A stretch of DNA of 64,000 nt from Ulota crispa (Eukaryota; Streptophyta; Bryopsida; Orthotrichales; Orthotrichaceae), in assembly GCA_963920765.1 (NCBI GenBank), contig OY987248.1, forward strand, positions 4,097,001 to 4,161,000, read 5' to 3'. Below are positions 10,320 to 64,000 of the stretch, piece after piece. The notes below the pieces were generated by a model. That model saw nothing but the letters and a program-made list of their open reading frames with translations. It ran no database searches and was not told the origin of the DNA. The position numbers and the translations under genes are program-made. Numbering within the stretch: the first letter of the stretch is position 1; each line of letters begins with the position of its first letter.

Positions 10320-11224
10320 CCCCGAAAGGACTAGACCCCCTTTTTTAGCAACATAGCAATTTTGGGCAAGAACCTATGATTGGAGCTTTTCATATTTTAG
10401 GCTAAAAATTTAATTGAATGTGGGAACAAGGTTTATCTTTCATATGCACTAGATTTCATGGCATTTGAAATTATGAGTAAAAAGTTATGGCCTAATATAT
10501 TGTTTTTTTCACTTGGCGGGCAATTTGGGCAGATTTTAAAAAATCAATTTTTTCAAGAACAAAAATTTTAAATTGGTTTAGGAGATTTATATGAATGTGG
10601 GAAGCTTTAAATCATTTTGTTTTCATCAATGAGATGAAAGTTATGAGGAGTTTTTGTTTGCCGGCAATTATGGATTCTCTACTCTAAAATAAACTTTGAA
10701 GTCCTTCATTTTACTCAATTTTCATTATTTTGGGAGAAAAACAAAACTAAAAGATATAAATTGTTTATTACAACATTAAAATTATTGGGATTGGCATTTT
10801 TCATTTCCATAATTAAATTCTTAACAATTTAGTGTTTTGAATCATTCTCTACCTCTTTTTACTTACTAATTTTTTTCCTTATGTTATATAGTTCCAAGTA
10901 ATTTGAAACTTTTTAGACATGTACTTTACTTAGGCGAAATAAGGAATCTAGAGAAGCACCATCCACACAACCCTTTTTCCTTGGGGATTTCACCTTCTGA
11001 AGGATAGTTGCCCGATTTTCCACAAGTCATTTTTGAATATTCAAACCATTCTATCTTCCAATCCACGTGGTGGAAAACTCTGATTTTTTTTCCACATCTA
11101 CTAAAACTACTCTTCTACAAGATCCTATGATCACATATGCATAAAAATGTTTTAATTTTCAAATTTGGTTAAAATGACAGTTCTGGAGAGTTTTTGGTGA
11201 AAACTTTGCGTGGTCCTTTAGGGG
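10320..11224. mobile_element. TTAA-flanked element a (905 bp)
   Basis: The ends are CCCCGAAAGGAC and the complement CCCCTAAAGGACCA. TTAA stands on both sides (10316-10319, 11225-11228). The interior shares with elements d, i and k the word GAGATGAAAGTTATGAGGAG, the block starting ATTATGGATTCTCTACTC and the block with CACACAACCC. Non-coding. Confidence 0.8.
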
Positions 11225-11228
11225 TTAA

Positions 11229-11538
11229 TGAAACTCCAATTCACTCGTTGTGTGCTTCTAGTTACCACACTAGCCCATTTTGGCCTACTAGAAAACAACC
11301 TTGGGGCAAAGAAGTTCTTTGCTACTGTAGATGTACAGTACTTCAAAAAAGCGAGATTCTTATGAGAAGTTAACACCTTGAGTGCCTTATTTCCTAGTTG
11401 CTCCTATTAAGATTTAAGGAATCTTTCAATTTATAAACATGGAGAAATGTGATTTTCTCAACCATAAATTGGGAGAATATATATTTGATTGACTCTTGCT
11501 ATAAAGCAGCATGGTTTAATAGTGACAAAGCCCACTTT
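11229..11538. other. Pre-insertion flank of the mitochondrial insertion
   Basis: Ordinary AT-rich DNA between element a and the 38-bp repeat. No gene seen. Confidence 0.3.
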
Positions 11539-11576
11539 GTACAAGGCTCAACACCCTTGGATGATATGAACTTCAT
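11539..11576 (+). repeat. 38-bp direct repeat, left copy
   Basis: It is identical base for base to 11934-11971. It begins GTACAAGGCTCAACACC and ends ATGAACTTCAT, and it directly borders the mitochondrial insertion. Confidence 0.95.
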
Positions 11577-11933
11577 ACTTGGTAAATGAACAAATAAGTG
11601 GTCCTTCTTTGATGAAACAACGCTTTTTTCCTTTAATTTTTGTCACTTTTCTTTTTTTATTATTCAGTAATCTTATTGGTATGATACCTTATAGTTTTAC
11701 AATAACAAGTCATTTTATAATTACCCTGGTTCTTTCATTATCTCTTTTTATCGGAATCACTATAGTTGGATTTCAAACACATGGGCTTCATTTTTTTAGT
11801 TTTTTATTGCCGCAAGGAGTACCCTTGCCGTTAGCACCCTTCCTAGTACTTCTTGAGTTAATCTCCTATTGTTTTTGCGCATTAAGTCTAGGAATACGTT
11901 TATTCGCCAATATGATGGCTGGTCATAGTTTAG
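11577..11933 (+). pseudogene. atp6: Nuclear copy of part of mitochondrial atp6 (NUMT)
   Basis: Reading from LVNEQ at the left edge through to MMAGHSL near the right edge, this encodes about 118 residues of ATP synthase subunit a, the proton-channel subunit of mitochondrial ATP synthase. Visible family landmarks are PSLMKQRFFPLIF, FSNLIGMIPYS, the PQGVPLPLAP loop and LGIRLFANMMAGHS with its channel arginine. The N-terminal part and the last helix are absent, so no functional subunit can be made. The frame is still open, which suggests a young insertion. One residue just before ALSLG is Cys (TGC) where plant relatives usually have Arg (CGC), a C-to-T change of the kind expected in methylated nuclear DNA. 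Confidence 0.9.
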
Positions 11934-11971
11934 GTACAAGGCTCAACACCCTTGGATGATATGAACTTCAT
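11934..11971 (+). repeat. 38-bp direct repeat, right copy
   Basis: A perfect copy of 11539-11576. Together the two copies bracket exactly the atp6 segment, as a long target duplication would. Confidence 0.95.
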
Positions 11972-12539
11972 GGACTCAAGGTGAGGATACTTTTAGCATT
12001 ACAACTCCCTCCTTTCCATAATCACACATTTAGAGTGTCATGTATTTTCAAGATTTGATCACCTTGACATAATTTAGGTTTATAGGATGTGTTATCTTTC
12101 ATCAAAATTGAAAGAGGATGTCTTGTAAAACTCCATTCAAACTTTAACAACTTTGCTTGCTCCTCTCTCTATGTTGCTTGGCTTTTTGTTATTGGAAATG
12201 GTTTTTTTTCCCTCTTTTCTTTTCAATGTAGCTCCAAAATTTGTTGCAGCTACCATTTGATTTTTTTGTATAATGCTTTTGTTTTACCACAATTTCTAAT
12301 AGTGGATAGCAAATTACAATAAAGTTGTTCTAATACATTTCAGATAAATGACACTTTCTTCCCTAAATTTCTTGTATGCTTATTAAAGTGTAAAAATATG
12401 TGTTCAAATCCCAAAATATGAAGGCTGATTGGAACCCTTCAAGTCAAGGTTAAAATGATAATTTGAAGAGGGTTTGACAAGGATGTCAATCTATAAGCTT
12501 ACATCCACCTATAAGCTTACATCCAACTACAATCATGTT
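11972..12539. other. No recognised gene
   Basis: AT-rich. A short direct repeat CTATAAGCTTACATCCA occurs twice near 12491-12525. Nothing else stands out. Confidence 0.3.
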
Positions 12540-12812
12540 TTTCTAATGAACACCAAATTAGGTAAATTGGGAAAAATAGTACATTTTGAGACTTTTGCTG
12601 TTTCGGTCATTATTTAAAATTTAGCATATTACAAAAAAACAAGAGTGCACTTTCTTGTACAATATTGAAGTCTTAGTGATTGCCTCCAAGAATTTCAAAT
12701 AATTACAACTTTGAGCTATAGCTATGCCTACATTTACTATATATAAGATTAAGGTGGAGTACAAAATGATCCCTTCATTTTTCCCAATATACCTAATATG
12801 GTGTTAATGAGA
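12540..12812. repeat. Imperfect inverted repeat
   Basis: 12540-12588 and 12763-12812 are imperfect inverted copies built on AACACCAAATTAGG and TTGGGAAAAAT. Probably a degraded MITE. Confidence 0.5.
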
Positions 12813-12989: not shown

Positions 12990-13205
12990 CCCTTAAACAA
13001 CTGAAAGGCCCTTCACGATCAATACAATATGGGGTATTTTTCTTGTATTTGGAATGGATCCACACTTCTACTACATTTAAGACCAACAAATAAGTTGGAG
13101 AATAGATCAATGCCGTTCTAGTGAGCTACTTGAGATCCCAAATTAAAATTTCTTATTGGTAGCAAATGACAATAGTATATACTATGCCCTATGGTCATTT
13201 AAGGG
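12990..13205. mobile_element. TTAA-flanked element b (216 bp)
   Basis: The ends are CCCTTAAACAACTG and complement CCCTTAAATGACC, with TTAA on both sides (12986-12989, 13206-13209). A short member of the TTAA family, with no coding content. Confidence 0.7.
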
Positions 13206-13209
13206 TTAA

Positions 13210-24053: not shown

Positions 24054-24927
24054 GTACAGTGGCCTCAAGAAAGTCTACGTATCACCCTCTCGTGGTATTC
24101 AAAAAAGTTGCTATAACAAAGAACTTAATTGACATTTTATCTTCAAATTTTTTGTATGTAATTCTTATACAATCGTGATCAAGCATACCAAATTTCAGGT
24201 ACTAAAAACCAAAATCCTATTTTTGGTAAATGATTTTGTGTCAAAATCATGGTTTTACAAGAAAGTTGATTAATAAACATTGGTGATGAATTTTTGAGAT
24301 TTGATTGCATGAATATGTAGGAGACATCCATATGCACATCATCCTTTCAAACAAATATTTTCAAAAAGTTTCAATTTTCCTTTTATAGAGATTTTAATGT
24401 TAGGGTGATCATGACCAAATTTAGTAAACTACATATTTCTTCATGGAAATTAGTTTTTGATATTTGACTAATACATTGTGATTAAGTTTGTACCTTTAAA
24501 CACGGTGATATGTTTACTTTGCCAAAAACTAATTTCCATGAAGAAATATGTAGTTTACTAAATTTGGTCATGATTACTTTAACATTAAAATCTCTATAAA
24601 AGGAAAATTGAAATTTTTTGAAAATATTTGTTTGAAAGGATGATGTGCACATGGATGTCTCCTACATATTCATGCAATCAAATCTCAAAAATTCATCACC
24701 AATGTTTATTAATCAACTTTCTCGTAAAACCATGCTTTTGACACAAAATCATTTACTAAAAATAGGATTTTAGTTTTTAGTACCTGAAATTTGGCATGCT
24801 TGATCACAATTGTACAAAGATCACATACAAAAAATCTGAGGATAAAATGCCAATTAAGTTCTTTGTTATAGAAACTTTTTGAATGCCATGAGAAGGTGGT
24901 ACGTAGACTTTTTTGAGGCCACTGTAC
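24054..24927. mobile_element. Long-hairpin element A3
   Basis: GTACAGTGGCCTCAAGAAAG at the left end pairs with its complement ending at 24927. The arms of about 390-400 bp stay complementary inward to a loop near 24480-24520. The core is the A-family sequence. Its right end runs directly into the left end of A4. Confidence 0.85.
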
Positions 24928-28176: not shown

Positions 28177-29497
28177 CTCCTAAATCTCTGAGTGTCTCCT
28201 TGGGGGACAAATGGGATTTTGGGCAGGTACCTACGATCTCAATTTTTGTTTTAATTTTTTGAAACTTTTTTTGTAAAAAAAAAACACGTTAGCTTTTGGA
28301 GAATGTAAATTTTATTCCAATCTATGACCAAAAGCAAAAGTTATGCCTAGATAAGCAAAACTTTATGGAGATCGGGCAAAATTTTTGTTTTACAAATTTT
28401 TTTTCTTTTTTTTTATTTTTCTTCTCATAGGTTATAATTTTTCCCACATCTGAAGCTTTGATTCATTCCATTTGGACTACTGTAGGTTGATAGCAAATTC
28501 GGCATAAATAATTCCCCAAAATTTTGCCTAATTATTCTTTAGATTATTCTCCAAAAGTGCCCAATGTCAAATAAATCAAAAAATTGAAATGTCAAATACT
28601 ATAAAAGTCATTAAGCTTACTAACAATGGAAGGTCAAGGTTGATTTCAAGAAGGCTCAATCTACTGCAAATTTTATACCAAGGGCTAATTTTAGAAAGTG
28701 GAAGATACTTAGAAAAAGGCTTAACTCTACTAAAAAAAATTGGTTGAATGTCAAATAATTACAAATTTTTTTTGAAAGTGCCTAATCTTGTTTAATTATG
28801 AAATCAGATGCCTAATTGATTTTTTCTCAAAAAATAATTGATTTGGCAGAGACATGCTAAATCTGCTCCTAACCTATAGTAGTTATGAGAAAGTTATGGA
28901 TAATTTAGTTTTTCGGGTACTTTAAGCATCTTCTTGAAAAAATAACTTAAAATTTTCATTTTTGAATGAAATTTTAACATTTTATTAAAAAAAAAAATTG
29001 GAAAAGGTGAAGTTTGCTTTCTAGAACAATCTCACCATTGGGATTATTGCATTTCAATTCCATTGCAAGGTTATGAACAATTGAAGTTTTTGTTCAGTCT
29101 CATACCTTCTTCTACCTAATGTTTTTTTAAAGAATGAAAATTAAGTGTTTTTTGTTTTGATTTTTTTCCAAAGATTCTCAACTCTATTTTTCACCTTTGA
29201 AAAATAAACCCCAAAACTTTGTGGTGCAAAAATTTGAAGTTAAAAATAGATCAAAGTCAAATAATCTAGTCATTCAAGGTGCAAAAAAGTTTGTTTTTGA
29301 CACTTTAAATGCAAATATCTTGCAATCTATGCGGTCAAAGTTTTTGAATTTTTGTTTCCACATTCTTATACTAGTCTAGTACAAGAACCTATGGTTAGAT
29401 ATTCAAAAAGACCAATTTTCAAACTTTTTACTCTTTGCAATAGAAGTGGCAATTTTGAGTGCCTTTTGACAAAATAAAGGCCCCAGGGATTTAGGGG
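28177..29497 (+). mobile_element. TTAA-family element c (1321 bp)
   Basis: It starts CTCCTAAATCTC after TTAA (28173-28176) and ends GGATTTAGGGG before TTAG (29498-29501), a one-base decayed TTAA. It carries the GGGACAAATGGGATTTTGGGC subterminal block at its left and a block near the right end shared, inverted, with element p. Confidence 0.7.
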
Positions 29498-29501
29498 TTA
29501 G

Positions 29502-30397
29502 CCCTAAAGGATCATTGTTCCTTTGGGGGACAAGTTGTACTTTGGGCATGTACCTATGGCTATACTACTTTGTGTGATTTTTTGAAACTTTTATTGAAGG
29601 TGGGAATTCAAAAATCTATGTGAGCATCTAAACTTTTCTTCATTCCTACATTTGATGAAGAAGTTATGTATGAATTTTATGAAAGTTTGAGGAGGACTAC
29701 CCATCCAAGCAGCCCAAAAACTTCTTTAAAACTTACATGTATTTAAAACAAAAATTTGAAGTTGGTTCTTTAGATATTTTTATACGTGGGAAGCTCAGTT
29801 TGAATCATTCAATTTCAATCAATGACAATTATGGATTCTCTACTCTAAAATAAACTTTGAAGTTCTTTATTTCTCTCAATTTTCAATATTTTGGAACAAA
29901 TTAAACCAAAGGAAGTAGATTGTTTATTTACGACATCATAGATGTTGGGATTTGCATTTTCATTTCAATAATGAAATTCTTAACAATTTAGTATTTTGAC
30001 TCATTCTCTACTTCTTTTTACTTACTATTTTTTCCCATGTGTTGTATAATTCCAATTGATTTGAAAATTCTCCCACACTTACCTAACTTGATCTCCTATA
30101 TGGAAAAAATAAAGTACAACTTTGGGTAGAGCAATTTTTTTTTGGTATAAAAGTGGTCAAAGGCTTCTAAAATTTTTTGGTAGCATGGAAAAAAAAATCT
30201 TCACTTTAGATGTAAATTTCTCAATCCTCTCTATCTAGAATGAGCCGATTTTTTCCACAAGTACCTCTTCTAGTCTGGAGCAAGATCCTACAATTGGATT
30301 TCCCAAAAACAAAACATAAAATCTCTTTTTACTAAACTTTCTAAAAGCGACAATTTTTTGTGATTTTCTCTGTAAAAAGGGCTTGGACCTTTAGGGG
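29502..30397 (+). mobile_element. TTAA-family element d (896 bp)
   Basis: It starts CCCTAAAGGATC and ends GGACCTTTAGGGG. The left flank is the TTAG shared with c, and the right flank is TTAA (30398-30401) shared with e. The layout (left block with GGGCATGTACC, centre with ATTATGGATTCTC, right block with AAAAAGGGCTTGG) matches k. Confidence 0.85.
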
Positions 30398-30401: not shown

Positions 30402-31120
30402 CTCCTAAAAGATCAAGGGCCCTTTTGGGGGACAAATGGGATTTTGGGCATGTACCTATGGCTAAACTACTTTGCGTGATTTTTTGAAACTTTTATTGAA
30501 GGTGAGAAATTCAAAGATTTACGTGGGAATGTGATTTTTACTTCATTCCGACATTTATTGAAGAAGTTAAAAATGAATAATTGAAAAATAGGGGACTATT
30601 GGGCAGCCAAAAACTTCTTTAAAATTTTCATTTTTTTCAAATAAAAATCTGAAATAGTTACTTTAGACTTGTGTAGACGTGGGGAGCTTTGAATCATTCA
30701 ATTTTGATAAATGAGATGAAAGTTATGAGAAATTTTCAGTTACAAGCACGTGTGATTTTGAGAGAAACCACACCTACCCGCAAACTAAAACTTCTCATAA
30801 CTTTCATCTTATCTATCAAAATTGAATGATCCAAAGCTCCCCAAATCTACACAAGTCTAAAGAACCTATTTCAAATTTTTATTTGAAAAAAATGAAAATT
30901 TTAAAGAAGTTTTTGGCTGCCCAATAGTCCCCTGTTTTTCAGTTATTCACTTTTAACTTCTTCAATAAATGTTGGAATGAAGAAAAAATTACATTCCCAC
31001 ATAAATCTTTGAATTTCTCACCTTCAATAAAAGTTTCAAAAAATCAAGCAAAGTAGTTTAGCCATAGGTACATGCCCAAAATCCTATTTGTCCCGCAAAG
31101 GGACAATGGTCCTTTAGGGG
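30402..31120. mobile_element. TTAA-family element e, palindromic form (719 bp)
   Basis: Both halves are inverted copies of the left-end block (GGGCATGTACC...GATGAAAGTTATGAG) meeting near 30755, so the element folds into one long hairpin. It starts CTCCTAAAAGATC. It ends TCCTTTAGGGG, after which the expected TTAA reads AAGC. Confidence 0.85.
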
Positions 31121-32785: not shown

Positions 32786-33504
32786 CCCGTAAAGGACCAC
32801 TTGTTCCTATGGGGGACAAATGGGATTTTGGGCATGTATTTATGGCTAAACTATTTTGTGTAATTTTTTGAAATTTTATAGAAGATGGGGAATTCAAAGA
32901 TATGTGTGGGCATCTGATTTTTTTCTCATTCCAACATTTATTGAAGAAGTTAAAAATGAATTTATGAGGATTTTAGTTCAGCGGGCAGCCCAAAAACTTT
33001 TTTAAAATTTGTATTTTTTAAAATTAAAAATTTGAGGTTAGTTCTTTAGACTTACATATATGTGAGAAGCTTTGAATCATTCAATTCTAATTGATGGGAT
33101 GAAAGTTATGAGAAATTTGAGTTTGCGGATAGGTGTGGTAAACCTCAAAACTATGCCTACACGCAAGCTAAAACTTCTCATAACTTTCATCTCATCAATT
33201 AGAATTGAATGATTCAAAGCTTCCCACATATATGTAAGTCTAAAGAACTAACCTCAAATTTTTATTTAGAAAAAATGCAATTTTTAAAGAAGTTCTTGGG
33301 CTGCTTGCCAAACTAAAATTCTCACAAATTCAATTTTAACTTCTTCAATAAATTTTGGAATGAGGAAAAAATTAGATGACCACACAAATCTTTGAATTCC
33401 CCATCTTCCATAAAAGTTTCAAAAATTTACACAAAGTAGTTTAGCCATAAGTACATGCCCAAAATCTTATTTGTATTCCGTAGGGACAAGTGGTCTTTTA
33501 GGGG
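32786..33504. mobile_element. TTAA-family element f, palindromic form (719 bp)
   Basis: It starts CCCGTAAAGGACCA and ends TGGTCTTTTAGGGG, with TTAA at 32782-32785 and 33505-33508. It folds end to end around about 33150. Same length and architecture as e. Confidence 0.88.
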
Positions 33505-34776: not shown

Positions 34777-35085
34777 TAAGGTAGGAGGTTCATAAACCGA
34801 CCATCTAAGGGCTGAACTGAACTTTAGGGATGTGAAACTTTCTGAAATATTTTTCAGTAATGTTTCTTAAAAGACAAGAGGAAGTTTCATGTTTTTTGGA
34901 ATTTTGTTAAATTAGTTATGAAATTTTGAAGTTGAAGTGGTATAAGGCTCTAAAATTACACACCTCCTCAAATATACACTGCTTGTATATTGTTGGAACC
35001 CGTGAAAAATAATGTGTACAAATGAAACATATTTGAGAAGGTGTGCAATTTTAAAGCTTGGACGGTTTATGAGCCTCCTACCTTA
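34777..35085. mobile_element. TAAGGTAGGAG-ended MITE E1
   Basis: The left TAAGGTAGGAGGTTCATAAA pairs with its near-exact complement ending at 35085. The terminal match is about 23 bp and the interior is weakly complementary. The first eleven bases are identical to those of E2 at 46069. Confidence 0.75.
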
Positions 35086-35235
35086 CTTAAAGACGCTTTC
35101 ATACTTTTTCCCTGTTGTGTGATAGAAACTTGCCTAGGCTTGAATGATAATCTTTCTTTGTCATCCTAGAAAGGTCCTAAATGATAAAGTCATGAATGAA
35201 GAATGTATAAGGATTACTAATACATGGATTTGTAA

Positions 35236-36680: not shown

Positions 36681-36902
36681 CCCCTGAGGGGCCCAAACGT
36701 CCTTTGCGGCTGTATGTCTGACCATACATATAGACGTATTTGAGCTGCTCTGAGGGCTTTCAAAGTTTTTTACACACCCACCATCATACAACCCTTCAAT
36801 ATGTATGGTTGTAACACTTAATTTTTAACTAATTCAAACTTCTGATATTGGTTGCAACCGTATTTGATACCGTAACTCTAGAGCCCAAGGGCCCTTCAGG
36901 GG
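36681..36902. mobile_element. TTAA-flanked element g (222 bp)
   Basis: The ends are CCCCTGAGGGGCCC and complement CCCCTGAAGGGCCC, with TTAA on both sides (36677-36680, 36903-36906). The TIRs hold, but the interior does not match the larger members. Confidence 0.8.
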
Positions 36903-37615: not shown

Positions 37616-38483
37616 CCCTCAAAGGTCTGTGCATCCAAAAAGTGGATGCACCTTGGTCAACCCTAATTGTAACTTTCAAAATATCAAATTTTGGTACGTA
37701 GTTCAAACTAAGAAAATGAAGCTTGACAAGTTTCCTTTCTATTCCATTTAATTCTTTTGAAAAATGTCAAAAATCAAGAAAGTTATTGCCATTGAAAGCT
37801 TCAAGTGTTAAAATCCAAATTAGACAATATGGTATGTTTTTCATTCATATTTTCTACTATGTAAGTGCATTTTAAGTTTAAACTACAAAACTATGTTTCT
37901 CATTCTACCATTCATTTATGGTAGAAATTATAGTTTTTTTTAAATATATATTCTAATTGAAGTGATTTTATTTCCATACTTAGCTTTAAAAAATCATAGT
38001 AATTTGAATATTTGTTCAAATTTATTGAAAAAACCAACATAAATAGAAAATGAATGTGTCTTCTAGTAAAAAATATCAAAATTTTATAAATTAATTAAAT
38101 ATAAGGATAAACATGGTTTGATAGTCAAATCTGACTTTAAATTCTTTTTTGTGGTTGATTTGGGTGTAAAATAATAAAATAACCAATTGAAAATTTTTCA
38201 AACTAATCTTTATTATTGCTTGTACCTCTTGAAAAAAATTCAAGTAATTTAGACTTTTTTTGCTATTTTAACTTATTTATGTTTATTTCATGAAAAAAAA
38301 TGATAACAATTACAAATTTTCATGAAACAAATTGAGATTTCTTACATTGGTATATCATTCATAGTTTCAAGCAATAAAAATATAAAATTAATATAAAATT
38401 GTTGTTTGAACACAATTTAAAAAGCAAAGTTAAGCTTAGAAATGAAGTTTGACCATTTCAAAATGGATCAAGTTCTTTAGGGG
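37616..38483. mobile_element. TTAA-flanked element h (868 bp)
   Basis: The ends are CCCTCAAAGGTC and complement CCCCTAAAGAAC, with TTAA at 37612-37615 and 38484-38487. The interior is unlike d or k and very AT-rich. Confidence 0.7.
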
Positions 38484-39421: not shown

Positions 39422-41013
39422 CCCTAAAGGATCAAGCCCTTTTTTTTTTGTCAAAATCACTGAAAATTGCCACTTCTAGGGGATGAGTAAGAAGGTAGTT
39501 TTTTTTTTTTTTTTTTTTTTTTTTTGGAAATGCAATCGTAGGATCTTGCCTTAGACTAGAAGAGGTACTTGTGGAAAAAAAAATCAGATCATTCTAGATG
39601 GTGAGGAGGTTGATATTTACATCTAAAGTGAAAAAAAAGGCTTTTTTCCTTGCTGTCCAAAAAAATTAGAAGCATTTGACCACTCTTACATGAAAAACTT
39701 GCTCTACACAAAGTTGAGGTTTATTTTTCCATGTAGTAGACCAAGTTAGGCATGCGTGGGAGAATTTTCAAATCAATTGGAACTATACAACACATGGGAA
39801 AAATTAGTAAAAAAGAAGAAGTAGAGAATGAGTTAAATCACTAAATTGTCAAGAATTTAATTATTGAAATGAAAAATGCAAATCCCAACAGTCTAATGTT
39901 GTGATAAAAAATCTACTTCCTGAGCTTTAGTTTTTTTTCCAAAATATTGAAAACTGTGGAAAATAAAGGAGTTCAAAGTTTGTTTTAGAGTAGAGGATCT
40001 GTAAATGCCCACAAACTAAAACATCTCATAACTTTCATCTCATTGATTGAAATGGAATGATTCAAAGCTTCCCACATATAAAAAAATCTAAAGAACCAAT
40101 TTCAGTTTTTTATTTTAAAAAAATACAATTTTACCCTTAAATTTTTCAGCCATTTTGAAGGTGTTTTGGACCTCAATTTTGTAAGTTATGAAAGGGTGAA
40201 GCTTAAAGAATGATGAGTCATTTTTAGGCCAAAGTAATCGTAAGATCTTATAGAAAGCCAAGTCCTTATCATCTTTACAAAGTTTGGTTTCAATCCAAGG
40301 GTTTGATTGGAAGATAATAACAAAAGTGTAAATGGTACTACAAGGAAACCAATGTTTTGGAGTAGTTGAAATTGTGCTTTGATTGGCTCTTGTGGACACA
40401 TAACATTTTAAAAAGTTGGCATCTTACGCTCATTCTCAAGGTAATCAAGTTCCACACGCATAGAAACAAGCCTTGTATTTTTAGGGTAAAAAATGAGTGA
40501 GAAAATGGTCTTGCAATAATGACCACTTTACTCTTAAATTTCAAAAATTGTGAGTAAAATTGAAGACTTTCACAAATCTAGGGCCAAAATTTAACACTAC
40601 AACTCCAAGACCACCCATGGTTTGAAAATTTTTGTAAATTCAATGGTGACTCTTCTTCTACATTTGAAAACTTGTTTATCTTTCAAATGAGTCAAAGTTC
40701 AAGTGACTCTTCACATTCCTAAGGTCATAAATGGCCTTGCTAAAAACCAATCAACCCAATTTGGGTCAATGAAAAATTTAAGGATTAAAGAGGTTTTTGA
40801 GCTGCCCAGATTGCCCTCCCTCCCCTTGACATCAGAAATTCTTGCATAACTTTATTGTTGAATGTCAAAATGAGGAAAAAACTAGATGCCCTCATAGATC
40901 TTTGAATTCCCCATTTTCCATAAAAGTTTCAAAAAATTGCATAAAGTAGTTTAGCCGTAGGTACATGCCCGAAATCCCAATTGTCCCTCGAAGGGACAAC
41001 GGTCCTTTAGGGG
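39422..41013 (-). mobile_element. TTAA-flanked element i (1592 bp)
   Basis: It starts CCCTAAAGGATC after TTAA (39418-39421) and ends GGTCCTTTAGGGG before TTAA (41014-41017). The order of blocks is that of d and k in reverse, with roughly 0.7 kb of extra DNA around 40200-40850. A run of 27 T lies at about 39499-39525. Confidence 0.8.
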
Positions 41014-41017: not shown

Positions 41018-41984
41018 CTCCTAAAATTCATTTGTGTTTACATGCTCAAATGGCTCAAAACTCACTTCTCTCAATAAAATGATTAGTGGATAAAATTTTG
41101 GAAACCTTTTTGATTATTCAACCATAAGATCTATTTTGTCACTTATTTATGTAATCCCTTTCAAAATCTCAAACTTTGTGAGGGTATACTTCCTTAGATT
41201 ATAACACCCAAAGTAAGATCCATACTTTTTTTGAAGCTTGTCTAAGGTGTCAAAATATTTTTTGGTCATCCAAAATGATATATTCTATTATATGAATCTC
41301 TTGTGCAATTTGAATTCCTTGTAGAGCATGAAGTTGGCTATATGCGTCACAAATTTCATCATCATCCAATATTTAGAATACAGCGGAAAAAAACTAGAAG
41401 CACAAACTACTTTGTTGAAACTATCATTACACTAAATAACATTCACAAAAAAAGATGCTTTTAGAATGAAGCTTAGTTACAAAATTTGTATGGTGAAAAC
41501 CTAGAACACCATGTGGAGTACTTGACAAGGTAATTTTTTCTAAAAATAAAAAAGTGAAACTTGATTTATTACAATGTCAAGCAGAGTTGAGTGCAATTTT
41601 TTCCTGTTAACCAATCCTTTGTAAATTGCTTTTGAATACTTTGTGGGCAACAATCTCCCTCAATCCCTTTGTTTTTGATTTTTTTTAGCTATGCCCGGGT
41701 TAACACCTAAATCACACATGGTACCATATCTCAATAAAAAAATAATCCAATTTCAATTTGTTTTTGGGAGGAACGCAAGCTTCTCAATATGAGTACATAC
41801 ATCCTAATTTTCACAATCTTATCTCAAATATTAACACAGAAAATGCTTGCCCAAATATCCTTAGCTTTGATATGTCTAGTCCAATTTGATTTTAGAAACA
41901 CAAATTTTGTCCTTGAATGTGTTTTGCAGACCGTATAGTAAAAATTTGAGGTGCCCCTCCAAATGGTCGACGGTCACTAAAGGG
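41018..41984. mobile_element. TTAA-bounded segment j (967 bp)
   Basis: It lies exactly between the TTAA of i and the TTAA of k. It starts CTCCTAAAATTC and its complement end is CCCTTTAGTGACC, so the terminal match is weaker than in other members. It could be a diverged element or spacer. Confidence 0.45.
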
Positions 41985-41988: not shown

Positions 41989-42921
41989 CCCCTAAAGGGC
42001 CATTGTTCCTTCGGGGGACAAATGGAATTTTGGGCATGTACTTTTTGATAAGCTACTTTGTGTGATTTTTTGAGACTTTTATTGAAAGTGGGGAATTCTA
42101 AGATCTACATAGGCATCTAACTCTTTCTTCATTCTAACATTTATCAAAGAAGTTATGCAAAAATTTATCAAAAATAAGGGAGGAGTGGCAGTTTGGGCAG
42201 CCCAAAAAACTTCTTTAAAAAATTTCTCTTTAAAAAAATAAAAATCTGGAATTGGTTCTTTAGATTATTATATAGATGGGAAGCTTTGAATCATTCAATT
42301 TCAATCAATGAGATGAAAGTTATGAGGAGTTTTTTTTTACGGGCAATTATGGATTCTCTACTCTAAAATAAACTTTGAAGTCCGTTATTTTACTCTATTT
42401 TCAATACTTTGGAAAAAAAACAAACCTAAGGAAATAGATTGTTTATTACAACATTATAGCCTTTGGAATTTTTCATTTTTTATTTCAATTATTAAATTCT
42501 TAATAGTTTAGTATTTTGACTAATTCTTTACTTCCTTTTACTTACTATTTTTTTCCCATGTGTTGTATAGTTCCAATTGATTTGAAAATTCTCCCACATA
42601 TACCTAGCTTGATCTCCTACATGGAAAAATAAAAGCACAACTTTGGGTAGAGCAATTTTTTTCATGTTAGAGAGGTTAGAGGCTTTTGAAATTTACTAGC
42701 AGGAAGGGAAAAAACCTTTTCCCTTTCACTTTAGATGTAAATATCTTCCTCCTTTCCATCTAGAATGACCTGATTTTTTTTCCATAAGTACTTCTTCTAG
42801 TCTAAGGTTAGATCCTACAGTTGGATTTCCATAAAAAATGAAATTCTACCTTCTTACTCATCCCCTAAAAGTGGCAGTTTTCAATGATTTTGGCAGAAAA
42901 AAGGGCTTGGTCCTTTAGGCG
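41989..42921 (+). mobile_element. TTAA-flanked element k (933 bp)
   Basis: It starts CCCCTAAAGGGCC and ends GGTCCTTTAGGCG, with TTAA at 41985-41988 and 42922-42925. It is collinear with d along its whole length. Confidence 0.85.
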
Positions 42922-43754: not shown

Positions 43755-44311
43755 CCCCTAAAACCCTAAATATAGTTTTCTGACAACATTGCAATTTTGG
43801 GCAGCTCATTACAAACGGGGTTTTCATTTTTTCTCTAAAACTATTACACATGATGTGCCCAAGTATAGTAGTGCCTCTTTAAGATGAACCTTTATAAGAA
43901 AAAATGCTTAGCTAAAATGAAGGAGATGACTGTCCCTGGCGGTTAGGAAGCTACAAAAGATGTGTTTGGTTACAATGAATGCTTTCCTTACACGAAATGA
44001 ATATGCTGTCCGGATACCTTCATTTTATTGAGGCACCATTGTGGTAGCTTTAAAGTCCAACAATTTTCATGACTTTTGACTTGGGCAGCCCAGGCAACTA
44101 AAAAAAAATCTTTGAAATTTTCATTTTTTAAAATTTTGGAATTGATTATTTAGATTAATGTATGCATGAAGCTTTGAATCATTCAATTTCAATTCATGAG
44201 ATGAAATTTATGAGGAGTTTTAGTTTGCAAGTAGGTATGGTTTTGAGAGACTCCACTAAAAGAGGCTGTTTTTAGTAACTATTACACAAAAAGGGCTTGG
44301 AACTTTAGAGG
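43755..44311. mobile_element. TTAA-flanked element l (557 bp)
   Basis: The ends are CCCCTAAAACCC and complement CTCTAAAGTTCC, with TTAA on both sides (43751-43754, 44312-44315). It shares the ACATTGCAATTTTGGGCAG word with a and the GATGAAATTTATGAGG block with d. Confidence 0.75.
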
Positions 44312-45125: not shown

Positions 45126-45213
45126 CTCCTAAAGCCTTAATCCCTCAACGTCCCAGCAGCAAAAAATTTGCTCCATTCCTTGTGTATAGTCTGATACCCG
45201 GGGCTTTGAGGGG
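45126..45213. mobile_element. TTAA-flanked element m (88 bp)
   Basis: The ends are CTCCTAAAGCC and complement CCCCTCAAAGCCCC, with TTAA at 45122-45125 and 45214-45217. The smallest family member, with essentially only terminal repeats left. Confidence 0.65.
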
Positions 45214-45217: not shown

Positions 45218-45850
45218 CCCCAAAACGACCGTGGAGATTCTTGAGCTTTTAGGAATTTGCTCTAATTTGAACAAAAAGCCACCATTTTGATAAATTGTAT
45301 CAGTTCATTTTGAATTGTAACCATATAAAATCAAACTAGACTTGTTAGAGATCACATTAGAAAAGAAAACACAACAAAATCTCTTATGGATTGAAAGATT
45401 AAAATGTTTGATCATGAGAGCGTTAAAATTGTGAAAGTGATTTGAAGTCTTTCAATCTTCTTTTCACATGTCAAATCTAAAAAGTTGGTCACCAAACAAA
45501 TATGAGGTTAAAGGGCCTAACATGCATAACCCCAATCAATTTATGACTTCTCAAAATCTACTCTAAATTTTTTTTAAATGAATTTCTAATGTGATTTTTT
45601 CTCAAAGATCTAGTTTATTTGAGGCTCATTCCCAAGAGCCCTCAACACTACATAAAGTCAAGATTGCAATGGACACCCTTGCACAAAATCTTGAATAGAA
45701 AAATAATAATTAATCATTTGCAAAATCAGATTGTTGAAGCTAATACTAAACTTCAAAAATATAAACTACTAAAAATAGAATTTTGATAATTTTTTATTTA
45801 ACTTAAAACATTGGTTGAGGACACATTATGTCCTCAGTGTTGTTTTGGGG
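45218..45850. mobile_element. TTAA-flanked element n (633 bp)
   Basis: The ends are CCCCAAAACGACC and complement CCCCAAAACAACAC. The left TTAA is shared with m and the right TTAA is at 45851-45854. The interior is unlike d or k. Confidence 0.7.
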
Positions 45851-46992: not shown

Positions 46993-47876
46993 TTGTACAA
47001 TACCCTTGCAAATCTTTACACCCAACCCTTTTCACTACTTAGCAAACTTAGCATTTTATAAAAAACTTTTGAAACTTTTACATTTTGTATCATTGATCTT
47101 TGATTCTTATACAATCTTAATCAAGCATACCAAATTTTGAGTTCCAAAAAACCAAAACTCTATTTTTGGTGAATAATTTTACATAAAATTCATGGTTTTG
47201 CATAATAAATGATTAAAGAAGGTTGGTGATGATTTTTTGAGATTTGATTGCAAGGGTATATAGGAAATGACCATAAGCACATCTTCCCTTCAAGCAAAAA
47301 TCTCAAAAAAGTTTCAAAATTCCTTCTATATAGATTTTCATGTTAGGATGATCATGACCAAATTTAGTATAAAAGAAATCTCTACTTTCTTATTAGATTT
47401 TGGAAAAACAAAAACATCATCATGCTCAAAGGTATAAACTTAATCATAGTATATGAGTCAATTTTCCAAAATCTAATAAGAAAATAGAGATTTCTTTTTC
47501 ACTAAATTTGGTCATGATCATCCTAACATGAAAATCTATATAGAAGGAATTTTGAAACTTTTTTGAGATTTTTGCTTGAAGGGAAGATGTGCTTATGGTC
47601 ATTTCCTACATACCCTTGCAATCAAATCTCAAAAAATCATCACCAACCTTCTTTAATCATTTATTATGCAAAACCATGAATTTTATGTAAAATTATTCAC
47701 CAAAAATAGAGTTTTGGTTTTTTGGAACTCAAAATTTGGTATGCTTGATTAAGATTGTATAAGAATCAAAGATCAATGATACAAAATGTAAAAGTTTCAA
47801 AAGGGTTTTATAAAATGCTAAGTTTGGTAAGTAGTAAAAAGGGTTGGGTGTAAAGATTTGCAAGGGTACTATACAA
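46993..47876. mobile_element. Long-hairpin element A5
   Basis: TTGTACAATACCCTTGC at the left pairs with the right end. The arms of about 400 bp are almost perfectly complementary through the A-family core, around a loop near 47410-47450 with CATCATCATGCTCAAAGG. Confidence 0.88.
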
Positions 47877-48891: not shown

Positions 48892-49813
48892 CCCCTAAAG
48901 GACCATGGCCTTTATTTTGTCAAAAGACACTCAAAACTGCCACCTCTATGGGAAAGAGTAAAAAAGTTTGAAAATTGGTCTTTTGCATATCTAACCTTAG
49001 GATCTTGTACTAGATTACTGTAAGAATATGTCATACAAAACTCAAGAACTTTGACCATACAAGTTGGAAGATATTTGCATTTAAGAAGTCAAAAACAACT
49101 TCTTTTGCACCTTGCATGACTATATTATTTAACTTTGAACTTTTTTAACTTAAATTTTTTGCACCATAGAGTTTGGAATTCTATTTTTGCATGGTGGGAA
49201 GTTGAGTTGGTAATCTTGGGAAAAAAAATATAACAAAAAATATTTAATTTTCATTCTTTAAAAAGAACATTAGGCAGAAGAAGGTATGAGATTGAACAAA
49301 AACTTAAATTGCTAATAACCTTGCAATGGAATTGAAACTCAATAATCCCAATGGTGAGGTTGTTCTAGAAAGAAAACTTCACCCTCTCCAACAGTTTCTT
49401 TTGAAAAAAGGTTAAGCTTCCATTCCAAAATGAATTGTATAAGTTATTTTTTCAAGAGGATGCGTGAATTGTCCAAAAAACAAGATTGTCCATAACTTTC
49501 TCATAACTAGTCCAAATGGAATGAATCAAAGCTTCAGATGTAAACAAAGATATAATTTATAAGGGAGTTTTTAAAAAAATTAAATCAAGTTTTTATAAGA
49601 ATTGTTTTGCTGCCTGGAGTCCCCAAATTTGTGCTTATTTGGGCATAACTTTTGCTCCCTAGCATCAATTGAAATAAAAATTAGATGCCCACGCAAATCT
49701 TTGAATTCCCCATCTTCAATAAAAGTTTCAAAAAATTATGCAAAGTAGTTTGTACATAGGTACATGCCCGAAATCCCATTTGTCCATTGAACGGACAGTT
49801 GGTCCTTTAGGGG
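48892..49813 (-). mobile_element. TTAA-flanked element p (922 bp)
   Basis: It starts CCCCTAAAGGACCA and ends TTGGTCCTTTAGGGG, with TTAA at 48888-48891 and 49814-49817. The block order is that of c in reverse. Confidence 0.85.
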
Positions 49814-49817
49814 TTAA

Positions 49818-51476: not shown

Positions 51477-53446
51477 CTAGAGACCACCGCGTCCATCAAC
51501 AGCATTCTCCTTGGACAGCTTAGCATCTCCATTCAGAGAATTTTGATCGTCATTCTCCCCGGACAAATCCTCCAGCGATTTCTGGTTCGTCTCGGGCACC
51601 AAAAAAGTGAAACAGAATCCCATAGCATTAACAGCCGCCATCACGAAAAGCGCATTCCGAAGCCCGATGCCTTTGTGGTATCCCGCCTGCAGATCGCGCA
51701 CATGGGAGCTTTGTGACGCATACAGAAACCCGAACGTGCCAACGATGGCACCGGCCTTTCCTGACGCGGCCGAAATTCCATGGCAAGTCGACCGGAAGCG
51801 GGCGGGGAAGAGCTCGGCAGGGACGATGAAGGTCGTGCTGTTGGGACCAAAATTTGCGAAGAAAAACGTGAGAGCGTACAAGATCACAAACCCGGCGTGA
51901 TCATGATATCTCAAGTGGTGGAATGGGATGGTGAGGGCCAACATGAAGACGGTCATGAAGAAGAATCCTTGCAGCTGAATCTTGAACCTGCCGATGCGGT
52001 CGATCAGCACCACCGTGACCCAGTAGCCCGGGACGGTGGAGCACAGCGCAATGAGTGCTTGCGCCCTCGCGATTCGGAACACTTCTTCTACAGCTGACAT
52101 AGAACTGGCGCTTGGTATCCACCCCACGGCGCTGTAGACGTTTTTCTGGAACAGAGTCTGGCTGTAGAATGCCACGTCCAACAAGAACCAGCAGGTTGTC
52201 GTGCCGATCAGATGAACACCATGCCTGCGATTAAATTCCTTCGAGAATAAACCATAGCGAATGTTCTCATTTTGCTGCATTTCAATGGCTTGGGCTTGTT
52301 CAGTTTTAAGCACCTTGGCCATGTCCAGAGCTGCAAGTTTTGCGTCTCCGGCCACGAGCGCGGTGTACCGCGCGGTTTCGGGCATCTTCATTCGGTAGTA
52401 GAACGTTGCAAGAGCTGGCACCGCACCGAACATAAGGATTGCACGCCAGACGAAGTCGGACGACTCTGGTACTGAGCCCTGCGGGCTGACTTCGAATGAT
52501 GGTGCGTGGACGAAGTGGTTGTAAATGGCGGCAACCACGCAGCCCACTGCACCTGCGCACAGGATCCCAGTGCCTTGCATCGCAAACACGGCCGCGATGA
52601 ACGCACCTCGCGTCCTATAAAATTCAAAACCGAAAAACTCAACGTGTCAAGCCTCAGTCTGGTTGGTTTCGACAACTTTGATATAACTTAAGTTCAGCAC
52701 GTTTCAGAAAGTGGCTGGTTGGATTGATTAGTACCTAGTGTTGGCATACTCTGACATGATGGTCGCAGACAGAGGGTAATCGCCACCGATTCCGAAGCCA
52801 AGCCAGAAGCGGAAAAAGCAGAGCGTTGCCAACGTCGATGTTGCAGTATGGCCGAAGGAGAGACCGCAGGCCAGGGCTGATATAACCATCAGCATGAGCG
52901 TCATCCCGTAGACCTTCTTCCGACCCAATTTATCACCTGTGGAGCAATCACATGGTCAATCCTTCAGCTCTTGAAATGAACCAAGCGATATGACAAGGAT
53001 ACGGAGGAGGTGAGTATGACTGTTTACCAAGCCATCCGAAGAAGAGTTGGCCCGCCAGGGTCCCACACAAGGCTACGGCACTCACAGCGGCATTCACGTT
53101 AACAGGCAGAACACCGGGAGTCTTGGCGCCGGGTTTTTGGTAGTAGAGTCGTCCAAGCAGTCCTGTGACGACGGGGATGGAGAACAAATCATACGCGTCG
53201 GTGAAAAACCCCATTCCTGCGTTGCGTAGCCAGAATATGCAACAAAAAACGGGTCAGGTTTCACACTAAAAGACAAAATAATTCTACGGACAAGCTTTCA
53301 TACTCGAAAATTAAATTGGAATCAAATTCACTGTAAGAGTCGGACGGGCAGCTCAAGTAACTCCTACCAGCAATGATGATCGCCGTGAAGTGGTACCATT
53401 GCGTCTTGGCCGTGTCCAAGGAGGTCAAGACTGCGAGTTGCGGCAT
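51477..53446 (-). CDS. PHT1: PHT1-family H+/phosphate symporter, 535 aa, four exons
   Basis: Exons (minus): 53446-53368, 53216-53028, 52936-52735, 52614-51477. Introns are 151, 91 and 120 bp, all GT-AG and in frame. An in-frame TGA lies about 27 bases before the ATG. The product is a plasma-membrane major-facilitator transporter importing phosphate with protons. Length fits the family (about 520-550 aa, 12 membrane helices). Visible landmarks: [17 protein letters not shown] (11-27), [12 protein letters not shown] (27-38), DKLGRKK loop (91-97), the PHT1 signature [13 protein letters not shown] (140-152), the large hydrophilic central loop (about 230-290), [11 protein letters not shown] (299-309) with Asp303 at the position of the substrate/proton aspartate of the family, and [12 protein letters not shown] (422-433). 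No defect seen. The exact paralogue and its expression cannot be told from sequence. Confidence 0.96.
53233..53240. promoter_or_regulatory. P1BS-like PHR1 site in intron 1
   Basis: GAATATGC fits the P1BS consensus GNATATNC bound by PHR1-type phosphate-starvation regulators. It lies in the first intron of the transporter. One such match is expected about every 4 kb by chance, so this is suggestive only. Confidence 0.3.
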
Positions 53447-60417: not shown

Positions 60418-60495
60418 CTTATTTGAATTAAAGATGCTCTTTATTGAGGTGAAACATGATGATAATAGGATTGCTACAAGGTAGTTTGCTCTTAA

Positions 60496-61393
60496 CCCCT
60501 AAATGTCCAAGGGTATTTTTCTTGTTTTTGGAAGGTAGTTTTGAAGTTTTTGAATTATCCTTGTAAGATCATTATTAAACATCAAAATAAAATTGTAACC
60601 GTTGGATCTTGAACTTCAAGGTTTCTAGATGGCATTATTCAAAAAGAATCCAAAATGACCGCGTGGATTTTAAGATATTTGTGATTGAATGATGATGAGT
60701 ATGGAATTTTTTGCTTTTTTTTGAGCTACCCGAAATTTCTAATGCAAATTGGCAACCTTTAGATACAAAATTGGGAGACAACCACTTAGGATGCTTTCGT
60801 GTTTATTGTTGTTACTTCAAAACCACTGGCCGCTCTTCCAAATCCACGACCACAATTTCACAAATGAGCCTGCAATGCAACCCTCAAAACGCAACCGTCT
60901 TATCCAAAGAAATTTTTAACTTCAATTATTAACCAAAAATCATTATGAATGAAAGAAAATTCAACGGTGAAAGGATCCTAATTTCAATAACAAAGACATT
61001 CCAAGTGAAATTAGTCTAAAAGCACTTTTAGATTTTGTTAGATGTCAAAATTTCAATAAAAAGGCCCTTATTGTCCAAGGGAGTGCCCAAGGGAAATCTT
61101 CACCTTTTGCTCAACTTGATGCCCGTTTTTTCAATGTGGCAACTTCTCATAGGCTCTATGACACTATCCACAACACTATTCACAACAAAAAATGTATGCT
61201 TGTAGTTAACCTTCCACCAAAAATAAATGGAATAAGATATGGAAGAAATTGAATTTGAACGGCAAAGCTAACTTCAACGTGCAACTTTTCCACAAAAAAA
61301 ATCTCAAAACAATAAAATCTATAACTTCAACAATGTTTCAAAGTTCCTGAAATTTTTTGGACACCAGAATCTGGTGTCTTGTGCATTGAGGGG
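60496..61393. mobile_element. TTAA-flanked element r (898 bp)
   Basis: The ends are CCCCTAAATGTCC and complement CCCCTCAATGCAC, with TTAA at 60492-60495 and 61394-61397. The interior is not collinear with d or k. Confidence 0.7.
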
Positions 61394-61397
61394 TTAA

Positions 61398-61483
61398 AGC
61401 AACCCGGCTGTAAAAGCGACCCCTCCTGAAATGCACAGCATGCGTACCAAAAGCAATGGGATCGCTTTTACAGCCGGGTCGCT
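61398..61483. mobile_element. Small MITE with 25-bp inverted repeats
   Basis: AGCAACCCGGCTGTAAAAGC at the left is matched by its complement ending at 61483, with one mismatch. TTAA flanks both sides (61394-61397, shared with element r, and 61484-61487). The interior is GC-richer than its surroundings. Confidence 0.8.
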
Positions 61484-61487
61484 TTAA

Positions 61488-63644
61488 GAGCAGACTACCT
61501 TACATCCAAGTAAACTTTTGGATTTTCATTGATGTTTGACTACAAATATAGGGATACTTAATACAACATCAAGGAGTTGGGGAGTTTTGGAGTACAATTC
61601 AACTATTACATACAACATATGTGATCATGGTTTCTTTGTATTGAGCATATAAATGATAATATTTACATATATGGACATATATTGTATGTGCTCTATATTG
61701 TGTGGTTGGATGCTCTTGGAGGAGGTTTACTCCATGCATCTTGTCGAGAATATATTTCTTAAACATATTTAAGTGGTGGGAAAGGCCTCAATTAAGTAAA
61801 TCTATGAGTGGTGGTATGGAGCTGCATCTAAATGAACCATTATCAAAACTACTACTCGATGAAAATGTTTATGTTTTAAACCTTATAAACAAATTCAAAT
61901 CAAAATTGGCTTTGCTTTTATTTATTTGAAATTGCTCCTACAATCTTCACAATTAGAAGGCCAATACAAGGTGTCTTTGTGCAACTAAAAAGTCACAACA
62001 TTGAGATGTGCACCTCGAAAGCCACAAGAGTTTTTAATTACAAGACAAACAGTATTGAATCTCACCAAATTTTGGCCATCAATAATATCAAGGGGAAATA
62101 TCAAAAATGACCCTGACAATCGGCCTTATTTCGAAACTAGTCCTGAGATTCTGAAAATATCCAAAATAGACTTGCCGCCTGAGTGAACACTCCATGAGTG
62201 GCTATGAAAAACTTGTTCTCCATAGCATCATTCTCTCCCACCAAAACTAGTTTTCCTCGGGGGTCACTCTCCAATTTTTTAATAAACTACGTGAGATAAA
62301 ATAAAGGGTCAATTTTATTCATTGGAGATAAATTTTATATCTTTTTTAGATTTACCATAGCATTGGAAAAATATGTCTTGCTTCATTATATGTAAAATAG
62401 GGTGGTGTATAATCCTCCATTTTAGAATATTGTAGAAAAAAAGAAGGGCGGGAATTATAAGATTATCCTAAAATAGTTTAGTAGGATGAGTGTAGGTTTT
62501 AGAATTCATGAGCAAATGGATGAAAAATAGTTTATTTTGTTCAAGTTTTAGGTTGTAACGTTTTGGATTTAGCAACAGGCTGTAGGGTAATTGAAGAAGG
62601 GTCAAGTGTGCTGGCAAAGGTTGGCATTATTGTGGAATCTCAAAAGTAGGGTTTGTGCTGGTGAGCACATTGGATTCTTTACACGTTGGCTTCATTACAA
62701 GCTATTATCTAAGCTTACCGTTGCTCTTGCTGGCATTTATGATTATTAGATTTGAGATTGTTTTCTTGCTGTTTGCAATTTTTCTCCCCCCGGATTATCT
62801 GAGCGTGCTAAAAGTGGCGGCGAGGGTGCTATATATGTAATTGAAGCTTTTCATCCTCCTTACAAAATTTTCCTCACAATGCTCTACTTGCAAGCATAGG
62901 AGTGTGAGCTTAGTGGGGTTTTCCTTCAAGGTTGGATTTGTTTTCTTTGTTGGCGTGTTTAGGGTTGGATTTCTTATTTTCTTCTGCCAACAACAATGGT
63001 GGACATTGGAGTTACCATTCAATTCTTTTTGCAGTTCTTGATAGTAAAAGCTCAAATTCACGCTCATAATTACATGTTGTCCTTTGCCTAATTTTCTTCC
63101 TTTCTTCATTTCTTCTCCATTTTAGGGTTTAGTGCTTCAAAGCTCGTTGTTTGCCATTTTGTGAGTATGCACGTGGTTGAAGATAATCTAAATTTTTTAG
63201 GAATGGGTTAGGGTTTAGAAAGGTTGCTTTGTAAGTATGGATTGAGGGACTTGCTATGTGTTAAATTCTTACGCTATTTTCTTGCGGGCCAAGTCTTCTA
63301 TAAACCCATTGTATACACATAATTTTTTCTTATGATACTTTTGTATTTGTAAAAAAAATAAGGTCTAAAAAATTAGGTCATATAACCATTTAGAAATAAG
63401 CATAGGGTACCCTAAAATACACTAAAGTAGCTTTTATATAATGAAAGGGAGGAAAAATTTACCTTAAAGAATCTAAATACCCCCCATTTAATTACCCCAT
63501 TATTGCATGTGGTATCCAATCGTAAAGGGGTGTGACCCCCTGAGTAATTTTCTCCTAGTACATTGCAAAATTAAGAACAAGAGTTGAATCTAGGACTTTG
63601 TAATCACACTCGGGTCCATACCTTGAAAGATTCCACTAAACATC
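61488..63644. other. No recognised gene
   Basis: The plus-strand frames at 61702-61929 and 62655-62840 and the minus-strand frame at 62795-63109 have no family match. Composition between 62550 and 63150 is slightly gene-like, so an untranslated exon or pseudogene cannot be excluded. Confidence 0.3.
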
Positions 63645-63648
63645 TCAA

Positions 63649-64000
63649 CTCCTAAAGGACAGTTGGCCCTTTTGGGGGTCAAATGGGATTTCGGGCATGT
63701 ACTTATAACTAAACTACTTTGTGTGATTTTTAGAAACTTTTATGGATGATGGGGAATTCAAAAATTTACTTGGGCATCTAATTTTTTCTTCATTCTAACA
63801 TTTATTGAAGAAGTAAAAAATGAATTTACGGAAAACAAGTTAGATTGGGCAGCCCAAAAACTTCTTTAAAAATTGCATCTTTTAAAACTAAAAATATGAA
63901 ATAGACTCTTTAGACTTATGTATTGGTGGGGATCTTTCAATCATTCAATTTTGATTGATGAGATGAAAGTTATGAGAAGTTTTTGTTTGCAAATGGATGT
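63649..64000 (+). mobile_element. TTAA-family element s, cut by the window edge
   Basis: It starts CTCCTAAAGGACAG after TCAA (one base off TTAA). It follows the left-end block of d and e (GGGCATGTAC, GAAGAAGT, GCAGCCCAAAAACTTC, GATGAAAGTTATGAG) to the last base. Confidence 0.75.

Follow-up and report, generated by a model that had tools for sequence, protein, structure and literature searches.

A piggyBac family with a large non-autonomous fraction in the genome of Ulota crispa

We analyzed a stretch of 64,000 nucleotides from the land plant Ulota crispa (contig OY987248.1 of assembly GCA_963920765.1, positions 4,097,001 to 4,161,000 of the forward strand), hereafter called the window. It contains many short segments with matching terminal inverted repeats (TIR), most of them flanked by TTAA. 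These segments almost certainly belong to a plant piggyBac family in which non-autonomous copies are numerous, and whose best-studied class derives from a longer element that encoded a transposase. By the features tested, the family is a member of the piggyBac superfamily, and its abundance is unusual for a plant. The assembly holding the window comprises 274.8 Mb. Its contigs are given below as C-numbers (the window lies on C7), and loci sampled from the genome as L-numbers.

Terminal repeats and target site

We delimited 16 segments following the list of the original prediction, which had been made from the letters of the window. Fifteen were kept, with ends reading C(C/T)CCTAAAGGACCA and its complement, and four of these match more weakly. 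The sixteenth, 41018-41984, was rejected as an element because its left and right tips do not match, having 4 of 10 positions in common. The prediction of at least fifteen such segments, of 88 to 1592 bp, is thus confirmed, as is its statement that TTAA lies outside nearly all ends. Both flanks are TTAA in 12 of the 15 segments. The exceptions are 28177-29497 and 29501-30397, which meet at one common TTAG junction, and 30402-31120, where the right flank is AAGC.

The number of such ends is well above that of simulated sequences. TTAA-anchored ends scoring at least 7/10 against C(C/T)CCTAAAGG were found 31 times in the window (16 left, 15 right), and at equal threshold 60 first-order Markov runs of the window averaged 6.3 and never exceeded 13. 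When no flank was required, TTAA adjoined 25 of the ends scoring at least 8/10 (13 on the left and 12 on the right), and the runner-up tetranucleotide 4. We then considered 32 window ends, a set that includes the rejected left end at 41018. Their flank columns read T, T, A, and A at 91, 94, 94, and 97%, and bases farther away are mostly near background. This lay-out was partly chosen for TTAA, so that its flank columns, as opposed to the flank-free counts, are not independent evidence. The first inner positions of these ends are strongly conserved: C occupies the first four in 97, 81, 97, and 84% of the cases, the second often being T, such that the ends begin with CCC, as in piggyBac. The TIR is about 14 bp long (CYCCTAAAGGACCA). 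Farther inside, the two halves of many elements are unlike, and we distinguish an A end (...GGGGGACAAATGGGATTTTGGGCATG, also written ...GGGGGACAAATGGGATTTTGGGCATGTACC behind the repeat) and a B end (...AAGCCCTTTTTTCTGTCAAAATCACTGAAAACTGCC, also written ...AAGCCCTTTTTTCTGTCAAAATCACTGAAAACTGCCAC).

When the window was taken together with 28 genome loci, 107 ends matched the TIR at 12/14 or better irrespective of the flank. Of these, 88 have TTAA outside. At most 28 of the 88 are the ends used to pick the loci, for which the search pattern contained TTAA; without them the count is still at least 60 of 79. The flank columns -4 to -1 are T, T, A, and A in 97, 99, 94, and 95 of the 107 ends (at most 28 by locus choice). 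This set comprises 52 left/right pairs, whose flanks agree beyond TTAA over 1, 2, 3, 4, and 5 bases in 13, 3, 0, 0, and 0 cases, i.e., as expected by chance. Since there is no duplication beyond chance outside TTAA, this tetranucleotide is the duplicated target and not a part of the element. Adjoining elements have a single common TTAA, not two, and the similarity in a three-copy alignment stops at TTAA.

Empty sites provide a further view of the target. We joined the flanks of 58 segments and compared them with the DNA of the window and of the sampled loci, a test that concerns paralogous sites. Four elements gave spanning matches other than element ends, two of which were readable: the element of L012 (four subjects) and that of L021 (two subjects). 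Among these six readable empty sites, two show a single TTAA (L012 element against L007, L021 element against window positions 34834-35087), and five align without gaps over a single TTAA or TTAG. Target and duplication are thus TTAA, as in piggyBac.

A longer relative encoding a transposase

As originally reported, no transposase remnant was detected in the window (best E 0.14 among four transposases used as tblastn queries). The original prediction had set beforehand, as a test of its piggyBac-like assignment, the search for a longer relative with the same ends and a piggyBac transposase. We found one such relative at C5:24506230-24515050 (8,821 bp). It has an A end on the left (14/14), a B end on the right (13/14), TTAA outside both, and between them a piggyBac transposase (DDE_Tnp_1_7) in the A-to-B direction. 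This is the one complete case, and it is decayed; the C5 element is a relic. Together with the two single-TTAA empty sites, it supports the assignment of the window elements as piggyBac-like and non-autonomous.

The first 174-213 bp of the C5 element are 82-86% identical to 41989-42921, 29501-30397, and 32786-33504 (for the last, 86% over 176 bp). At the other terminus, ~350 bp can be aligned to 29501-30397 and 41989-42921 with an identity of 75-76%. In 41989-42921, the first 226 bp and positions 396-931 align to the two C5 termini; of the latter, ~350 bp are matched by BLAST at 76%, and the inner part aligns weakly. This is as would be expected of an internal-deletion derivative of the C5 piggyBac element. 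For 29501-30397, the identity of the final ~350 bp to the 3' terminus of transposase element L050 is 74.6%.

Profiles of the two end regions, built by a strict rule from 39 A and 19 B sequences, gave the same picture. The A profile matched the C5 5' end (E 8.8e-59), and the B profile matched the 3' ends of the C5 element (E 6.8e-81) and of a transposase copy on C7 (E 7.7e-34). Neither profile matched L030-L033, four further transposase loci, at any E up to 1. Laxer profiles (49 A and 18 B sequences) produced an additional match of A to the C5 3' end (E 1.3e-17), which is gone with the strict profiles, while the other matches are kept. The C7 copy has two stops in its transposase match and has its 3' terminus in common with C5 over ~340 bp. 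Searches for the A end in L030-L050 revealed no 5' end, and the A end of C5 was found only farther upstream.

An open piece of 363 residues from the C7 copy (P0001) matches DDE_Tnp_1_7 at E 3.2e-44. Its matches in the PDB include 6x67, listed as 'Transposase' and which we take to be a piggyBac complex (E 1.8e-17), and piggyBat 9c0f (E 1.2e-11). When P0001 is compared with both structures, the acidic residues of its IDE, LDN, GVD, and VAD motifs are aligned, i.e., the catalytic residues are in place; in Trichoplusia ni piggyBac these are presumably D268, D346, D447, and D450. The same four motifs can be read by eye in the pieces P0002 and P0003 of C5. The end of P0001 holds cysteines and histidines, and Pfam reports no domain there. 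The amino acid identity of P0001 is 50% with the C5 copy and 28-36% with four other loci, of which L030 and L033 are 68% alike. Several transposase lineages thus coexist in this genome.

Proposed mode of transposition

The anatomy of the elements, their target, and their relationship to a transposase-encoding element are read directly from the genome. The best-studied class almost certainly consists of internal-deletion derivatives that kept the first ~200 bp (A) and the last ~350-540 bp (B) and lost the gene. For their mobility we infer a mechanism in trans, in which the transposase of longer relatives would bind the common ends. By analogy with animal piggyBac, cut-and-paste transposition would involve excision exactly at the CCC tip, with the donor site closing to one TTAA, and the element would be pasted into another TTAA, thereby duplicated.

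Transposases across the genome

The profile PF13843 (DDE_Tnp_1_7, the piggyBac transposase family) has at least 120 matches in this genome, spread over contigs C1 to C11 (best E 1.3e-73), and none in 14 control genomes. The search produced 528 candidates, of which 116 were scored, so that the count is a lower bound; all the matches listed are above the curated cut-off. Ten of the listed matches, at eight loci, have no internal stop and are candidates for intact or domesticated transposases (Table 1). At the one on C4 (L030) the GVD motif reads GVN, and no TTAACCC end was seen in 1.9 kb of 3' flank of C2:34594948 (L048).

We examined 19 transposase loci at one or both ends, four of them with ~6 kb (L030-L033) and 15 with 1.9 kb of 3' flank. 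Each of the former has one or more TTAA ends that resemble the TIR at 8/14 or better, and L031 467-5485 has TTAA and CCCYTCATYGCCAA at either end. Among the latter, TTAACCC was found inward in 7 and outward in 1. The B end of the window family closes 2 of the 19 loci (C7:11819342 and C5:24512207). Distinct tips, CCCYTCAYYGCC or CCCTTTAG, are found behind TTAA in L031 467-5485, L030, L033, L035, L038, and L041, and piggyBac copies with such tips may be accompanied by non-autonomous families of their own. At ~1817-1896 (+) of L044, 3' of another transposase match, there is a B-like end (E 5.2e-15). It faces away from the match, is cut by the end of the locus, and is probably a neighboring element. 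In L049, a long simple repeat (~5203-5922) directly follows the transposase piece on its 3' side, with frames reading HTYI or MYVC. As candidate autonomous copies we considered L029, where 3.35 kb separate the ends, and the long pairs of L016, L026, and L028. Inspection by eye revealed no transposase-like frame in them, and no family search was made on them. In L029, a B end is paired with an end of a different type.

Abundance, end classes, and diversity

The exact 18-mer TTAACCCCTAAAGGACCA occurs 7,555 times genome-wide (3781 forward and 3774 reverse), and its reversed control is absent. For a longer A-end pattern the counts are 144 + 152, again with no occurrence of the control. A safe estimate is therefore at least about 3,800 elements, if each had two exact ends. 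Three exact 18-mers lie in the window, compared with a mean of 1.76 per 64 kb of the whole genome, and the elements of the window, including the probable ones, amount to 11.8 kb. Scaling from these values, which rest on the 3 window 18-mers, suggests that the elements make up roughly 10% of the genome.

Ends were classed strictly in 51 elements, namely 50 of the 52 pairs (the two longest were left out) and window 29501-30397. There are 19 elements of type A...B, 8 of type A...A, 5 with A and an unclassified end, and 1 with B and an unclassified end; the remaining 18 have neither. BLAST clustering of 50 elements resulted in nine clusters of at least two members and eight singletons. The largest clusters have 15 members, mostly of ~930 bp, and 8 members, mostly palindromes of ~719 bp. 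The mean identity within clusters of at least three members is 77-82%. Two of the palindromes, 30402-31120 and 32786-33504, lie in the window and are near-palindromic, with an A end at either side.

We lean somewhat towards a broader interpretation, in which this is a long-lived and diverse piggyBac population with several transposase lineages, more than 100 transposase matches, eight stop-free loci, and non-autonomous copies that number ~10^4 or more and account for several percent of the genome. A land plant would then have piggyBac as a major native DNA transposon, with transposases that may still work or be domesticated.

Alternative explanations

The link between the ends and the transposase could be fortuitous if old miniature inverted-repeat transposable elements (MITEs) of unknown class had inserted at the edges of an unrelated piggyBac element. 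MITEs often adjoin here with one common TTAA, and in L049 the transposase is preceded on its 5' side by a complete non-autonomous element. However, the outermost A and B ends of C5 are partial (~220 bp and 350-540 bp), and they are ordered and oriented as in one element, with the gene between them and TTAA outside. A whole A...B element at the edge of C5 would show its other half, and the profiles find none there. The C7 copy, whose transposase is 50% identical, ends in the same 3' terminus. We thus consider such a chance association very improbable. It is even slightly less probable that the elements merely resemble piggyBac and belong to Kolobok or Sola3. Sola3 targets TTAA. What contradicts both assignments is the piggyBac transposase encoded between these ends in the full-length relative, no search having been aimed at transposases of Kolobok or Sola3. 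Kolobok likewise duplicates TTAA, but its ends are 5'-RR and YY-3' and its transposase has a C/DxxH signature, according to the excerpt available of PMC9587614, whereas the ends here start with C(C/T)CC. We rejected Kolobok on the end sequence and on the piggyBac transposase of the relative.

One might also argue that TTAA is part of the terminal repeat and that the true duplication is another one, e.g., the 2-bp TA of Tc1/mariner. TTAA is palindromic, and so can be read as part of an inverted repeat, and the filled sites alone are compatible with a TA duplication inside a strict TTAA target. Yet the 52 pairs show no duplication beyond chance outside TTAA, neighbors have one TTAA in common, five of the six readable empty sites align without gaps, and the transposase is that of piggyBac. 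This makes an alternative target duplication extremely unlikely.

Several observations nonetheless weigh against a piggyBac family with internal-deletion derivatives, or restrict it. Of the 51 elements, 18 lack a clear A or B end by which they could be linked to a parent element, and positions 214-584 of 41989-42921 have no convincing match in C5 (BLAST, best E 0.009). The C5 gene has internal stops and a repeat common with L028 lies upstream of it, which is why we do not regard the C5 copy as autonomous at present. Of the two extended transposase loci, one has the A end; for the C7 copy, 7 kb contained no 5' end. The 3' B end is missing from 17 of the 19 transposase loci, where TTAACCC ends were either related but different or not found, and the B-like end of L044 is opposite in direction and was not counted. 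Three of the six readable empty sites have TTAG and one is gapped, the cases of L022 and L027 being unreadable. Finally, the family is old, since copies of the same cluster differ by ~20%.

Relation to known elements

PiggyBac is known above all from animals and is widely used as a gene-delivery tool. The family described here resembles the members of this superfamily, such as Trichoplusia ni piggyBac and Myotis piggyBat, in its TTAA target, short TIR, and aligned acidic residues, and possibly in the cysteines near the C-terminus of the transposase. It differs from animal piggyBac by its plant host and by its very large non-autonomous fraction. The comparisons with published elements that follow draw on the excerpts available of the papers cited. 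The ends mostly begin with CCC, and the published 5' motifs are CCCT, CCCTTT, CCCATT, and one CACGTT (PMC12732532). Intact beetle elements have 2074-3465 bp (PMC12732532), whereas the two-ended copy has 8.8 kb and an extra repeat. The piggyBac MITEs of coral (PMC2872659) and of Daphnia, where they are named Pokey (PMC4912750), are also non-autonomous and tied to piggyBac. In contrast to these, of which the abstract openings give the description, the elements analyzed here are in a plant. They have a transposase relative with both termini in the same genome, and A/A palindromes of ~719 bp are found beside A/B elements of ~930 bp.

The original suggestion that a plant family of this kind would be new or little described holds in part. 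PiggyBac is already listed for plants: among plant superfamilies in a review (PMC10794571), among the superfamilies of angiosperm MITEs (PMC10004981), and among those present in every group examined (PMC4438587). It is also described as having been isolated from plants as well as from insects and fungi (PMC10813416). Repeat tables contain small amounts for a fern (1230 pieces, PMC6890710) and for Dracaena (38 pieces, PMC6294377). On the other hand, a beetle paper of 2025 describes plant piggyBac as occasional, with red algae as the example (PMC12732532). A literature search by titles and abstract openings, mostly without subscription papers and without preprints, found among the papers listed no land-plant piggyBac family described with its transposase and derived elements.

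The thousands of piggyBac-type ends and the more than 100 transposase matches show that this superfamily can thrive in plants. They provide plant annotators with a concrete family, defined by its ends, target, and transposase, whose copies might otherwise be filed as unclassified MITEs. The horizontal entry of piggyBac in plants and its native activity there become testable questions.

Elements and other features of the window

The elements of the window are given in Table 1, where four of them (12990-13205, 37616-38483, 45126-45213, and 45218-45850) are probable family members.

Table 1. Family members in the window (window positions) and stop-free transposase matches in the genome (contig positions)
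Feature	Position	Strand	Description
Non-autonomous element, 905 bp	10320..11224	+	TTAA both flanks; left end A-like; right TIR CCCCTAAAGGACCA
Probable member, 216 bp	12990..13205		TTAA both flanks; variant, weaker TIR CCCTTAAA
Element, 1321 bp	28177..29497	+	A left, B right; TTAA left, common TTAG right; 402-bp unrelated insert
Element, 897 bp	29501..30397	+	A...B; joins neighbors via common target sites
Palindromic element, 719 bp	30402..31120		A ends at either side; 351-nt arms (90%); AAGC, not TTAA, at the right
Palindromic element, 719 bp	32786..33504		A end both sides; TTAA both flanks
Element, 222 bp	36681..36902		TTAA both flanks; TIR CCCCTGARGGGCCC
Probable member, 868 bp	37616..38483		TTAA both flanks; weaker TIR
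Element, 1592 bp	39422..41013	-	B left, A right; TTAA both flanks
Element, 933 bp	41989..42921	+	A...B; TTAA both flanks
Element, 557 bp	43755..44311	+	TTAA both flanks; A-like left, B-like right
Probable member, 88 bp	45126..45213		TTAA both flanks; short, each end 10/14
Probable member, 633 bp	45218..45850		One TTAA common with the 88-bp element; TIR CCCCAAAACRAC, weaker match
Element, 922 bp	48892..49813	-	B left, A right; TTAA both flanks; both TIRs 14/14
Element, 898 bp	60496..61393		TTAA both flanks; sister copy L023:3185-4080 at 85.6%
Left (A) end of element leaving the window	63649..64000	+	Flank TCAA
Stop-free transposase matches	C1:1180709-1181995; C8:19570986-19572215; C4:3591922-3593028; C2:34594948; C2:36765124; C2:36779670; C6:21758576; C5:11139315		Candidates for intact or domesticated transposases

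Some elements have recognizable relatives. The inner 391 bp of 10320-11224 are 81% identical to 42214-42603, and a second copy of 36681-36902 is found at L007:1627-1851 (82% identical). L001 and L015 hold elements that resemble 12990-13205 in size and tip. Two elements contain inserts. The one in 39422-41013 (~640 bp) is missing from sister copies. The 402-bp insert in 28177-29497 (28478-28879) is missing from a sister copy, lies beside TA, and has inverted ends starting with CTRTAGGTT; we take it to resemble a MITE of the Tc1/mariner type. We rejected the possibility of family members nested within elements: the insert junctions inspected are not TTAA/CCC, although several alignments are ambiguous.

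Other inverted repeats are present in the window. Two are near-perfect, at 46993-47876 (415-nt arms, 98%) and 24102-24880 (358-nt arms, 95%). The latter shares sequence with the flanks of an element in L027 and, via these, with other places of the window and with L020; it is a different foldback family.

Among the open stretches, the one at 1186-2859 (+) has 557 codons and no Pfam match, and its frame presumably resembles hAT-derived zinc-finger proteins. Just downstream of the element at 10320-11224, a stretch of 129 codons (11570-11956, +) matches the ATP synthase A chain (PF00119, E 1.3e-34). It resembles mitochondrial atp6 and may be a nuclear insertion of mitochondrial DNA. The most plant-like gene of the window lies at 51477-52646 (-), where the frame matches the inorganic phosphate transporter 1-11 (PDB 9kmq, E 2e-120) and Sugar_tr in Pfam.

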